The notes under the pieces are model-generated. The model was not told where the DNA came from. It ran no database searches and worked only from the letters and a program-made list of their open reading frames with translations. The translations under genes were made by a program, and so were the position numbers. Source: Nitrosovibrio sp. Nv4 (GTDB lineage Bacteria; Pseudomonadota; Gammaproteobacteria; Burkholderiales; Nitrosomonadaceae). Taken from it: 46,462 nucleotides of DNA. Below are positions 12 to 43,140 of this stretch, piece by piece (position 1 is the stretch's first letter; each line of letters starts with the position of its first letter). The stretch is from NCBI GenBank assembly GCA_945888885.1, contig CAMDAX010000002.1, positions 1 to 46,462 on the forward strand, given 5' to 3'.

Positions 12-2588
12 ATGAAAGTATCGAATATCCACGCACTGCGCGGCCCCAATTTATGGAGCCAGCACACGGCTATAGAAGCTATCGTTTCCTGCAGCGTTGC
101 CGAGTACCCCATCGACAAACTGCCGAGATTCATCACCCGGTTACGTGAGCACTTCCCGGAAGCCGCCTTGCTCCAGCCAGCCAGGCATTATGAAACCATG
201 ACCATGGCTCATATCCTCGAATTCGCTGCACTCGGCCTGCAAATGCGTGCTGGATGCCCTGTCAGCTTCAGCCACACCGTACAAACGTTGGAAACCGGCA
301 CCTATCGAGTCGTTGTTGAATACAGCGAAGAAGCGGTTGGTCGGCTCGCTTTTGAGCTCTCACAAACTTTGTGCCATTGTCTAATTGACGATACTCCTTT
401 TGATCTGGCCGATGCGCTACACCGTCTGCGCGAACTTGATGAGGACGTGCGCCTTGGACCAAGCACTGGTGCCATCGTCCACGCTGCTGTAGCACGTGGC
501 ATTCCTTTCCGCCGCTTGACTGAAGGTAGTATGGTGCAGTTTGGGTGGGGCAGCCGGCAGCGCCGCATCCAAGCCAGCGAAACCGATCTGACCAGCGCCG
601 TCGCCGAATCCATTGCGCAGGATAAGGAATTGACCAAGATGCTGCTGCATGCTGCTGGCATTCCGGTTCCGTTGGGCCGTCCAGTATTAAATGCTGCAGA
701 TGCCTGGGCGGCCGCCTGTGAAATTGGTGGACCGGTCGTCATAAAACCCCAGGATGGCAACCAGGGTAAGGGAGTCGCGGTAAATCTCGTAAACCGTGAG
801 CAAGTAGAGGCTGCCTACGCAGTAGCGGTTGAAATCAGCGGCGAAGTTCTGGTTGAGCGTTACATCTCCGGTCATGACTACCGCATGCTGGTAATTGGCA
901 GCAAGCTGGTTGCTGCTGCGCGGCGAGAACCGCCTCAAGTAGTCGGTGATGGCGTACACAGTATTCGGCAACTGGTAGAACAGGTCAATAGTGATCCGCG
1001 CCGTGGCAAAGGTCACGTTGCCTCGCTGACTAAAATAAATTTTGATGAAATTACTCTCGCTCACCTTGCAATCCAGAATCTTACGACCGAATCCATCCCG
1101 GTCAAAGGTACACGCATCATCCTGCGCAATAACGCCAATCTTTCCACTGGTGGTACGGCTGTCGATGTGACAGATGAAGTTCATCCCGAGCTTGCTGAAC
1201 GCGTGGTGGCCGCTGCGCAAATGATTGGTCTCGATATCTGCGGAGTTGACGTTATCTGCAACACTGTGCGGGATCCGCTGGAACAACAAAGCGGCGGCAT
1301 CATTGAGGTAAATGCTGCACCAGGTCTGCGCATGCACCTGCAGCCTTCATCCGGCAAAGAACGTGCGGTTGGCGAGGCAGTCATCGCCAATATGTTTGCC
1401 GACGGTGAGGATGGGCGCATTCCTGTTGTTGCAGTAACCGGCACGAACGGCAAGACCACCACCGTTCGTCTGATTGCCAATATCCTCGGCTGTCAAGGCT
1501 TGCGTGTCGGCATGACAAATACTGACGGCGTCTACATTGAAGAGCAACGCATCGACACCGGCGATTGCAGCGGCCCGAAGAGTGCGAGAAATGTCCTCCT
1601 CCATCCCGATGTCGATGCCGCTGTATTTGAGACGGCACGCGGTGGCATGCTGCGCGAAGGACTGGGTTTCGACCTCTGCCATGTTGCAGTAGTCACCAAC
1701 ATCGGCATGGGCGATCACCTCGGTCTCGCACACATCAATACGGCAGAGGATCTGGCCGTTGTCAAACGTGTCATCGTACAAAACATCGTACCCGATACTG
1801 GTGTTGCCGTGCTCAACGCCGCTGATCCGTTGGTAGCCAGCATGGCTGATAGCTGCCCTGGCTCAGTTACTTTCTTTGCCCTCGACCGCAACCATCCGAT
1901 AATAGCCAGGCACCATGCACAACGTAAACGCGTCATCTATCTTGATGGCGACTCGATAGCTGCCGTGGGGGCAACTGGAGTTGAATACCGGATCCCGCTG
2001 AGCGAAATCCCGATCACGCAGAATGGCACCATAGATTTCCAGATTGAGAATGCCATGGCAGCTATCGGAGCTGGCTGGGCGCTTGGTCTTGATTGGGCGG
2101 TCATTTGTGCGGGTTTGACCAGCTTTGTCAGTGATGTGCAAACTGCGCCAGGCCGTTTTAATCTTTTCAGCCATCGTGGCGCTACACTGATCGCTGACTA
2201 CGGCCACAATGCGGATGCGATTCGGGCACTTGTATGTGCCATCGATAATATGCCAGCCAAACGGCGCTCGGTAGTCATCAGTGGTGCCGGTGATAGACGC
2301 GACGAAGACATCCGTCAGCAGACCAAGATCCTTGGTGACGCTTTCGATGAAGTCGTGCTTTATCAGGATCAGTGCCAGCGTGGCCGTGCCGATGGAGAGG
2401 TGCTTGGCCTACTGCGGCAGGGATTGGAGAATGCTAAACGCACCCGTGTGGTCAAGGAAATACGGGGGGAGTTTGTCGCCATTGATGCTGCTTTCGCCAA
2501 CCTCAAAGCTGGCGAGCTATGCCTTATTCTCATCGACCAGGTCGAGGAAGCACTCAGACATATCAGCAGACGGGTAATCGCAGGCTAA
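12..2588 (+). CDS. cphA: Cyanophycin synthetase
   Basis: Polymerises aspartate and arginine into cyanophycin, a nitrogen/carbon storage polymer, using ATP in the cytoplasm. The 858-residue length fits the family. An N-terminal domain opens with ALRGPNLWS; an ATP-grasp domain follows (about 200-460, with KPQDGNQGKG near 246); then a Mur-ligase-like domain carrying the P-loop GTNGKTTT at 477-484 and a DYGHN motif at 729-733 (many Mur ligases and cyanobacterial CphA have DYAHN there). The ATG at 12 has a GGA eight bases upstream. Betaproteobacteria often carry two adjacent cyanophycin synthetases; the partner, if present, would lie left of the window, which cannot be seen. The family call is firm; activity is inferred. 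Confidence 0.93.
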   Translation: MKVSNIHALRGPNLWSQHTAIEAIVSCSVAEYPIDKLPRFITRLREHFPEAALLQPARHYETMTMAHILEFAALGLQMRAGCPVSFSHTVQTLETGTYRVVVEYSEEAVGRLAFELSQTLCHCLIDDTPFDLADALHRLRELDEDVRLGPSTGAIVHAAVARGIPFRRLTEGSMVQFGWGSRQRRIQASETDLTSAVAESIAQDKELTKMLLHAAGIPVPLGRPVLNAADAWAAACEIGGPVVIKPQDGNQGKGVAVNLVNREQVEAAYAVAVEISGEVLVERYISGHDYRMLVIGSKLVAAARREPPQVVGDGVHSIRQLVEQVNSDPRRGKGHVASLTKINFDEITLAHLAIQNLTTESIPVKGTRIILRNNANLSTGGTAVDVTDEVHPELAERVVAAAQMIGLDICGVDVICNTVRDPLEQQSGGIIEVNAAPGLRMHLQPSSGKERAVGEAVIANMFADGEDGRIPVVAVTGTNGKTTTVRLIANILGCQGLRVGMTNTDGVYIEEQRIDTGDCSGPKSARNVLLHPDVDAAVFETARGGMLREGLGFDLCHVAVVTNIGMGDHLGLAHINTAEDLAVVKRVIVQNIVPDTGVAVLNAADPLVASMADSCPGSVTFFALDRNHPIIARHHAQRKRVIYLDGDSIAAVGATGVEYRIPLSEIPITQNGTIDFQIENAMAAIGAGWALGLDWAVICAGLTSFVSDVQTAPGRFNLFSHRGATLIADYGHNADAIRALVCAIDNMPAKRRSVVISGAGDRRDEDIRQQTKILGDAFDEVVLYQDQCQRGRADGEVLGLLRQGLENAKRTRVVKEIRGEFVAIDAAFANLKAGELCLILIDQVEEALRHISRRVIAG

Positions 2589-40294: not shown

Positions 40295-41467
40295 CTACAA
40301 CCCCCTTGCCAAATCCACTTTGATATCTTGCACCGCTTCCAATCCCACCGCGATGCGCAACAGGCCTTCGGTGATACCCGCCACATCCCGTGCTTCCTGA
40401 CTAATACGGGCGTGGGTAGTACTGGCGGGGTGAGTAAGCGTACTCTTGGTATCACCTAGATTGGCGGTAATCGAAATTAAACGAGTGGAGTCTATCACCT
40501 GCCATGCGGCTTCTTTTCCACCCTTCATTTCGAATGAAACGATGCCACCACCAGTTTTCTGTTGGCGCCGGGCAAGCTCGTACTGCGGATGCGACGCTAA
40601 GCCGGGATAATAAACTCGCGCCACATTTGGCTGCGCCTCCAGCCAGCGAGCAATTTCCATAGCATTAGTAGAATGAGCCTCCATGCGGATTTTTAGAGTT
40701 TCCATTCCCTTCAGAATTACCCAGGCATTGAATGCGCTCAGAGTTGGGCCAGCAGTACGCAAGAAGCCATGCACCCCTTTTTCCATCACCAGCTCGCGTT
40801 TCCCCAGCACTGCGCCACCCAGCACTCTACCCTGACCATCGAGATACTTGGTAGCAGAGTGGATCACGAGGTCGGCGCCCAACTCCAGCGGCCTTTGCAG
40901 TATCGGTGAACAAAAACAGTTGTCGACCGCAAGCCACGCCCCAGTTTTTCTCGCAACTACAGCCAGCGCTGCGATATCGGAAATTTCAGTAAGCGGGTTT
41001 GACGGGGTTTCTACAAAGAAAAGTTTTGTGTTGGTTTTTACTGCCGCCTGCCATGCTGCAACATCGGTGGCTGAAACAAACGTGGTCTCAATACCGAAAC
41101 GTTTGAGGATATTGTTAAACAGGTTTACCGTGGCACCAAACAGGCTGCGTGAAGCGATAACGTGATCCCCTGCAGAGAGCAATCCCATTACGCAGGCAAG
41201 TATTGCCGACATGCCGGAAGAAGTGGCAACACAGGCCTCCGCTCCCTCCAGTGCAGCAAGTCGTTCCTCAAAAGCAGTAACAGTAGGATTGGTGAAACGC
41301 GAATATATATTTCCAGGTTCCGCGCCGGAAAATCGTGCGGCAGCTTGGGCAGCACTATCAAACACATAGCTTGAGGTAAGATACAAAGCCTCGGAGTGTT
41401 CATTGAATTGACTGCGGTGAATACCGGTATGGAGCGCCAGCGTTTCCAGTTCAAAATCGTCAGACAT
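40295..41467 (-). CDS. metZ: O-succinylhomoserine sulfhydrylase
   Basis: PLP enzyme that makes homocysteine directly from O-succinylhomoserine and sulfide in methionine synthesis. 390 residues of the Cys/Met-metabolism PLP family: ALHTGIHRSQFNEHSEALY at the start, SRFTNPTVTAFEERLA, SGMSAILA, and the PLP Lys207 in SATKYLDGQG. Its position at the end of the purF cluster is usual for metZ. The ATG follows an AGGG six bases upstream. A SAM-II-like riboswitch and terminator lie directly before it, so expression should fall when S-adenosylmethionine is plentiful. Confidence 0.94.
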   Translation of the reverse strand: MSDDFELETLALHTGIHRSQFNEHSEALYLTSSYVFDSAAQAAARFSGAEPGNIYSRFTNPTVTAFEERLAALEGAEACVATSSGMSAILACVMGLLSAGDHVIASRSLFGATVNLFNNILKRFGIETTFVSATDVAAWQAAVKTNTKLFFVETPSNPLTEISDIAALAVVARKTGAWLAVDNCFCSPILQRPLELGADLVIHSATKYLDGQGRVLGGAVLGKRELVMEKGVHGFLRTAGPTLSAFNAWVILKGMETLKIRMEAHSTNAMEIARWLEAQPNVARVYYPGLASHPQYELARRQQKTGGGIVSFEMKGGKEAAWQVIDSTRLISITANLGDTKSTLTHPASTTHARISQEARDVAGITEGLLRIAVGLEAVQDIKVDLARGL

Positions 41468-41480
41468 GGGAGACCCTCTC

Positions 41481-41520
41481 CAAATAAAAAAACCCGTTCA
41501 GCCTTTGCTAAAACGGGTTT
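41481..41520 (-). terminator. Intrinsic terminator/attenuator before metZ
   Basis: On the minus strand a perfect 9-bp stem AAACCCGTT/AACGGGTTT (41512-41520 with 41490-41498) with a 13-base loop is followed by a T-rich run (TTTTTATTT). It ends only about 14 bases before the metZ start, so it must be overridden or controlled if metZ is read from the upstream promoter. Bases 41507-41517 also belong to an alternative hairpin with the riboswitch. Confidence 0.88.
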
Positions 41521-41578
41521 CCCACGCTTTAGCTGTATTTATAACGCGCCCGCAAGCTGAATATCAAATCGGCGCACA
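41521..41578 (-). ncRNA. SAM-II-like riboswitch
   Basis: On the minus strand the segment contains the SAM-II core in order: a P1 stem TGCGCC (41571-41576) with GGCGCG (41545-41550), the loop start GATTT just after the first arm (41566-41570), the conserved TTATAAATACAGCTAAA (41528-41544), and GGGAA ending it at 41521-41519. The known SAM-II aptamer of a marine metX leader has the same GAUUU, AUAAAUgyAGCUAAA and GGGAA elements with the same spacing. SAM-II binds S-adenosylmethionine in a pseudoknot and controls methionine genes, and metZ is directly downstream. Recognised from memory, not from a covariance search. Confidence 0.8.
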
Positions 41579-41619
41579 ATCACAAATTACACTTGGTAAA
41601 TATTTTTGTCAAATCGCCG

Positions 41620-43140
41620 TTAATCTGCTGCCACCAAATTCAAGTCCAGTTGCGTGCTGGATCTGGCTTGCGCTAAGGCAAGGCCGCCATTGCGTTGCGC
41701 CTCAATAATAGCCAGGTATTCAGGCGTAACATCACCAGTGATGTAATTACCATCGAAACAGGAAGTCTCATAACGTGTAATGGATGGATTAACCCGGCAC
41801 ACATCTTTCTTGAGGGAGTCGAGATCCTGGTAAACAAGATGATCCGCGCCGATTTCTCGGCAAATATCATCGTCATTGCGTCCAGTGGCAATCAGTTCCT
41901 GGCGCGTTGGCATATCAATCCCGTAGACATTTGGAAACCGTACTGGCGGCGCGGCTGAAGCAAAATATACTTTGTGCGCCCCGGCTTCCTGTGCCATTTG
42001 TACAATTTCTCGGCTGGTGGTGCCGCGCACAATGGAGTCATCCACCAATAATACGTTCTTGCCACGGAATTCCACACTCATCGCGTTGAGCTTCTGCCTC
42101 ACCGATTTACGCCGCTGCTGCTGCCCTGGCATGATGAAAGTACGGCCAATGTAACGGTTCTTGACGAAACCCTCGCGAAAGTTTAGCCCCAGGCGATTGG
42201 CAAGCTGCAAGGCACTAGGACGGCTGGAATCAGGAATTGGAATTACCACATCAATATCTAGATGCCGCATGGTCTTAGTGATTTTATCGGCCAGACTCTC
42301 ACCCATGTTCAGTCGTGTCTCGTATACTGAAATACCATCCATTACCGAATCGGGACGCGCCAGATAGACATATTCGAAAATACATGGGTTAAGCGTAGGG
42401 TTGATAGCGCATTGTTTGCTATGGAAATTACCATTCTCGTCAATAAAAACCGCCTCGCCCGGTGCAATATCACGTACCAGTTTGAACCCCAGTGTATCGA
42501 GCGCTACGCTCTCAGATGCTACCAGATACTCGATCCCATGTTCGGTATCGGCACAGCCAAATACTAGCGGGCGGATACCGTAGGGATCACGGAAGGCCAG
42601 CAACCCGTAACCTGCGATCATTGCTACTACTGCGTAAGCACCGCGGCAACGCCGGTGTACACCGGCAACCGCAGCAAAAATAGCAGCAGGATCAAGCTGA
42701 TGGTTTTTCGTGCTCCTTTGCAACTCATGTGCAAGCACATTGAGCAACACCTCAGAATCGGAATTGGTATTGACGTGACGTAGGTCTTCACGAAACAACT
42801 CCTGGTTAAGTTGTGCTGCATTGGTGAGATTGCCGTTGTGTCCCAATACGATGCCAAACGGCGAGTTGACGTAAAAGGGCTGGGCCTCGGCGCTAGATTC
42901 AGCAGAACCAGCGGTCGGGTAGCGCACATGGGCAATACCCATATTGCCAGCCAGCGCACGCATGTTACGAGTTCTAAATACATCCCGAACCAAGCCTCCA
43001 CCTTTTTGCATGTGGAAAGTATTGCCCTGCGCAGTAACTATGCCAGCAGCATCCTGTCCACGATGCTGCAGTACCAACAGCCCGTCATAAAGCAGCTGGT
43101 TGGCAGGCGATTGTGCGACTACACCCAGAATTCCACACAT
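41620..43140 (-). CDS. purF: Amidophosphoribosyltransferase
   Basis: First enzyme of purine synthesis, making phosphoribosylamine from PRPP and glutamine. 506 residues. The N-terminal Ntn-hydrolase domain begins MCGILGVV, Cys2 being the nucleophile after Met removal; the C-terminal phosphoribosyltransferase domain has the PRPP loop [14 protein letters not shown]. No propeptide is present, as in the E. coli-type enzyme. It follows cvpA, the usual neighbour, by 130 bases and precedes the metZ riboswitch. Confidence 0.97.

Follow-up and report, generated by a model that had tools for sequence, protein, structure and literature searches.

In the 46,462-nucleotide stretch of DNA analyzed here (hereafter, the window), the leader of the methionine gene metZ is highly likely to carry a SAM-II riboswitch that attenuates metZ transcription, and this is the best explanation of the data. 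The element lies on the minus strand, in the gap between purF and metZ. Using NCBIfam equivalog models, metZ (40295-41467, minus strand) was identified as encoding an O-succinylhomoserine sulfhydrylase of 390 amino acids (NF006003, 717 bits, cut-off 522; TIGR01325, 596 bits, cut-off 510). The upstream gene, purF (41620-43140; TIGR01134, 528 bits, cut-off 350), is encoded on the same strand. Sequence and comparison support the aptamer homology, the P1 stem, promoter-like elements, a terminator and an antiterminator, the mutual exclusion of the two, and conservation; from these we infer that SAM is bound, which way the switch works and where transcription starts.

When 341 bp were compared with all 4227 Rfam families, the metZ leader matched SAM-II (RF00521) at 31.3 bits (E 1.9e-5). 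This score is below the gathering cut-off of 36 bits, which is an annotation threshold and not a structural feature, and a default Rfam scan is therefore silent at this leader. In a search of the whole genome (2.0 Mb), the metZ leader was the only RF00521 match at E <= 0.1 (E 2.7e-5). To avoid circularity, we also used a hold-out model (R2) made from 30 aptamers outside the window's own family, alphaproteobacterial ones included. In its own genome the metZ leader scored 75 bits with R2 (E 1.7e-17), and no other match fell below E 0.1. A betaproteobacterial model (R1) contains the window's own sequence, and its score there is thus not independent. A second SAM-II in the same genome was sought with both models but not found, the best other matches having E values of 0.34 (R1) and 0.1 (R2). 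Relatives with the same layout do pass the RF00521 cut-off: one from the same family, also in the metZ context (L003, 36.6 bits), and one from another family (L001, 45.2 bits). The first-pass annotation had recognized the parts of a SAM-II aptamer, in order, before metZ, and was borne out by these searches; the RF00521 check that it proposed succeeded by E value and by uniqueness in the genome, but not by bit score. Minus-strand matches to SSRC10, PyrR and Trp_leader were far under their cut-offs, covered mainly the terminator hairpin and were rejected.

Comparison with relatives supported the same assignment. P1 is formed by TGCGCC (41571-41576) and GGCGCG (41545-41550); among 119 distinct relatives, 95.3% of cells were paired and 62 cells had two-sided changes. 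Its covariation score was 0.222; shuffles scored 0.074, with none of 500 reaching the observed value, and slid controls did not exceed 0.033. The covariation in P1 named beforehand as a check was thus present. By itself, P1 was no more stable than shuffled sequence. The pseudoknot stem P2 pairs CAGCUUGC (41552-41559), in which TTGC is invariant, with GCUAAAGC, and 90% of its cells were paired. Of the six pairs, the two outer ones vary without compensation and the other four are invariant, so the pseudoknot rests on homology. The core blocks GAUUU, UUGC, AAAU and GCUAAA are all present and align with those of alphaproteobacterial members. GAUUU (41566-41570), the conserved predicted SAM-contact loop, is almost invariant among relatives, and GCUAAA (41528-41533), the 3' strand of P2 and a predicted SAM site, is invariant. 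These blocks also align with what we take to be the crystallised SAM-II sequence, and those that contact SAM in the solved SAM-II are unchanged in the metZ leader. By homology, then, the minus strand at 41525-41577 is a SAM-II aptamer.

Directly behind the aptamer, as had been noticed earlier, stands an intrinsic terminator (41487-41523, core stem 41490-41520; -17.9 kcal/mol, z -4.65), in which GCUGAACGGG is the stem partner of the 5' arm. Its tract of seven U (41486-41492) ends 18 bases from the metZ ATG (41486 to 41467) and not about 14, the distance originally given. A competing antiterminator hairpin of 27 nt (41507-41533; -13.8 kcal/mol, z -4.46) pairs GCUAAAGCG (41525-41533) with CGUUUUAGC (41507-41515), and GG (41522-41523) with CC (41516-41517), making 11 pairs that close a GAAA loop and leave a single U bulged. 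Both hairpins (z -4.7 and -4.5 when rounded) folded better than 200 of 200 shuffles. The blocks from which the first-pass annotation had built this hairpin are where it placed them (GCTAAA 41528-41533, TTTAGC 41507-41512, GGG 41521-41523, CCC 41515-41517), and a hairpin using GCTAAA and the terminator arm does exist; however, the GGG:CCC pairing would span an internal loop and is really GG:CC plus the bulged U. Since terminator and antiterminator share the strand 41507-41517, they are predicted to be mutually exclusive, and the antiterminator also takes up, in its 5' strand, GCUAAA, which is predicted to be held in the pseudoknot when SAM is bound. When folding of the growing RNA was followed from the expected start, the antiterminator became the most stable fold at about 74 nt and stayed so until the 3' arm of the terminator had emerged, at about 90 nt, when the terminator took over.

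Of 199 distinct relatives, 156 had a hairpin with a U tract; shuffling reduced this number to 35, and the opposite strand had 16. Throughout the window's family, the 5' arm of the terminator is coupled to the aptamer. The remaining 43 related leaders had no detectable terminator, and some of these may act on translation. The competing hairpin was kept among relatives as well, in line with the earlier expectation: when the 15-nt tail of the aptamer was paired with the stretch that runs to the terminator loop, the mean energy gain was -10.15 kcal/mol, as against -8.34 when partners were permuted among loci (sd 0.16, best of 200 -8.71) and -4.95 when the partner was shuffled. This swap test used fixed boundaries; terminator-defined boundaries could bias it. 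With the variable part of the tail only, the signal was weak (-4.03 vs -3.79, sd 0.13), so that the antiterminator evidence lies mostly in the partners of the constant GCUAAAGCG and their contiguous extensions. Within the window's family this partner is TTTAGC or TTTGGC, and occasionally CTTAGC or TTTGAGC.

A strict sigma-70 consensus scan of the leader returned no promoter. The putative promoter was missed because its -10 is weak (TAnnnT); the -35 hexamer, TTGACA (41607-41612), is perfect and lies directly behind the purF stop. The putative -10 element, TAATTT (41584-41589, spacer 17), was assigned from the motif recurrent in relatives, TTGAC(A)-16..18-TAnnnT, which precedes 96 of 200 related aptamers (shuffles predict 1.1) and whose -10 mostly ends 6-11 bases before the aptamer. 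Transcription is expected to start near 41577-41580. At the metZ Shine-Dalgarno region (41469-41481), the sequence GGAGAGGGTCTCC is self-complementary, is alike in sister genomes and may form a weak GGAGA/TCTCC hairpin (-5.1 kcal/mol, z -0.35) that is no more stable than shuffles.

The natural reading of this arrangement, we infer, is an OFF switch acting on transcription. RNA polymerase would start at the promoter behind purF and make the aptamer first. At low SAM, GCUAAAGCG of the pseudoknot strand would pair with CGUUUUAGC in the terminator 5' arm, the terminator would be blocked and metZ would be transcribed. At high SAM, GCUAAA would be held in the pseudoknot, leaving the 5' arm free for GCUGAACGGG, and transcription would end at the U tract to yield a leader RNA of about 90-95 nt.

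Across the 399 genomes of the order, R1 detected the element in 312 at E <= 0.01 and in about 277 at E <= 1e-6 (by hand count of the table), whereas RF00521 at its own cut-off was passed in 64. By these model matches, the SAM-II class is widespread in betaproteobacteria, mostly under the Rfam cut-off. The downstream genes, named by motif, included 57 of metZ/metY type, 29 metX and 14 metH among others, counts that are lower bounds since 79 of the 209 genes were left unassigned; metK, metB, MetN-type transporters, metA and homoserine/aspartate kinase were also named by short motifs, and 32 of 74 scanned downstream proteins fell in the sulfhydrylase/homocysteine-synthase family group. Tandem SAM-II copies about 90-170 nt apart were seen at L118-L123, L030, L004, L116, L109 and L198, with a terminator between the copies at L030 and L004. 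We do not present these as new, 44 cases of tandem SAM-II having been described already (PMC9481103). Most genomes of a sister genus in the same family (g3; e.g., G010 and G013) are without a strong SAM-II, and a few carry tandem copies that are weaker, in one case upstream of metK (L118). This genus may have lost its metZ switch or replaced it. Three Burkholderia-like metX leaders (L304, L305 and L306, at about position 1507) have a SAM-II into which an additional hairpin is inserted immediately 3' of P1. No terminator was seen in L305 and L306, where GCGGCTAAA could pair with TTTAGCCGC further downstream and CCGCC with GGCGG at the Shine-Dalgarno; from their sequences, these two look like a translational version.

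Could the metZ aptamer likewise act chiefly on translation, the hairpin and U tract being weak or incidental? We consider this improbable. The small hairpin described above can cover the metZ Shine-Dalgarno, and L305 and L306 combine the lack of a visible terminator with an antisequestor-like Shine-Dalgarno pairing; however, the metZ hairpin has a z of only -0.35, no better than shuffles, and lies downstream of the U tract, whereas the terminator folds strongly and has a 5' arm that is linked to the aptamer family-wide. That the hairpin is a mere 3' terminator of purF, with the remainder due to chance or decay, is suggested by the position of purF, which ends at 41620 on the same strand and upstream of the hairpin. 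A promoter-like site behind purF, a conserved antiterminator partner, and an aptamer whose conservation extends to 305 of the 391 good genomes of the order, where it also precedes metX, metH and metK at sites away from purF, make this explanation extremely unlikely. There is an equally slight chance that the SAM-II fold is tuned to another ligand, e.g., SAH. Sequence cannot decide ligand specificity, but the blocks known to contact SAM in the solved SAM-II are unchanged, and the regulated genes make methionine and should be repressed by SAM.

Two published labels bear on the class and the strand of the element. One is the metXZ element, reported as "novel" by Leyn et al. (2014) from the leaders of metX and metZ in betaproteobacteria. 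It has six conserved blocks, regions 1+4 and 2+6 of which form a pseudoknot, together with a terminator/antiterminator (PMC4239095). In the search that these authors made with the Rfam model, SAM_alpha was confined to Rhizobiales and Rhodobacterales, and they called the betaproteobacterial element new, which would favor a separate RNA class with its own ligand. Such a class is most improbable, as the genes, the taxa, the six blocks, the 1+4/2+6 pseudoknot and the terminator behind it are the SAM-II layout; the metZ elements of Nitrosospira and Methylophilales, both named in that paper, match SAM-II models (L190 and L250), and many relatives score above the SAM-II cut-off. The second label, the Burkholderia sRNA Bp2_287 (RF02424), would put the functional RNA on the other strand. 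The plus strand at 41487-41613 scores 36.8 bits to RF02424, and an RT-PCR product has been reported in B. pseudomallei (PMC3521395). However, the score is under the cut-off of 70 bits, and, of 199 relatives, 156 have a terminator on the metZ strand and 16 have one on the other strand. At loci L177, L178, L179 and L180, RF02424 matches the strand opposite SAM-II aptamers; this is so in three of three genomes over its cut-off and also at L180. The discoverers themselves placed Bp2_287 (Bp2_Cand287_SIPHT) beside purF and metZ and guessed at a cis element for methionine genes (PMC3521395). A functional RNA on the plus strand is therefore hardly credible, and RF02424 probably has both the strand and the type wrong.

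Against these alternatives, the SAM-II attenuator agrees with what is known of the class. As in SAM-II (RF00521, SAM_alpha), there are a P1 stem, the GAUUU/UUGC/AAAU/GCUAAA blocks, methionine genes and, in many members, a downstream terminator; it differs in that the metZ leader falls below the Rfam cut-off and has a betaproteobacterial flavor (CAGCUUGC, GCUAAAGCG and a shorter P2b). A 2007 report already singled out SAM-II as the riboswitch with the most frequent links to terminators in alpha- and betaproteobacteria (PMC2258182), and the Sinorhizobium meliloti metZ SAM-II is predicted to terminate transcription on SAM binding, yielding a leader RNA (RZ) (PMC9373788). The high interest first attached to an attenuating SAM-II on metZ in a betaproteobacterium does not survive, because both the link to terminators and a metZ case were already published. 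The S. meliloti switch shares the gene and the predicted terminator with ours, but belongs to an alphaproteobacterium in which the leader RNA was measured at high and low SAM (PMC9373788), whereas the present switch is predicted from its sequence.

The correspondence with the metXZ element extends to the order of its parts. In a mapping that is our own and not that of its authors, regions 1 to 6 would be GCGCC, GAUUU, CAGCUUGC, GGCGC, AAAU and GCUAAA, i.e., the SAM-II order, and SAM-II models match elements both before metZ (Nitrosospira, Methylophilales) and before metX (the Burkholderia-like L304-L306). The metXZ element has the betaproteobacterial metX/metZ leaders, six blocks, pseudoknot and terminator/antiterminator in common with the element described here, but was published as new and without a named ligand (PMC4239095), whereas we assign it to SAM-II. 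Bp2_287 occupies the same purF-metZ intergenic region and appears to be the same element, but Rfam models its opposite strand and labels it an sRNA (RF02424; PMC3521395). On sequence grounds, SAM-II, the metXZ element and RF02424 appear to be one element under three labels; a literature search, mostly without subscription journals, found no paper uniting them. We regard it as very probable that the metXZ element and, on the wrong strand, RF02424 are both SAM-II, and that SAM-II is the main betaproteobacterial switch for homocysteine synthesis, most copies of which are missed by the Rfam cut-off.

Taken together, the comparative data make the metZ leader a well-supported candidate SAM-II transcription attenuator of a known riboswitch class. 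A 2022 paper states that no earlier study had addressed how SAM-II affects gene expression (PMC9373788). The metZ leader offers a complete predicted SAM-II expression platform, i.e., aptamer, antiterminator, terminator and promoter, in which the switching strand is identified. The results also suggest a correction of annotation: of the order's 399 genomes, the betaproteobacterial model detects the element in about 277 (E <= 1e-6) and the Rfam cut-off in 64, and SAM-II can take in two elements that were published separately.
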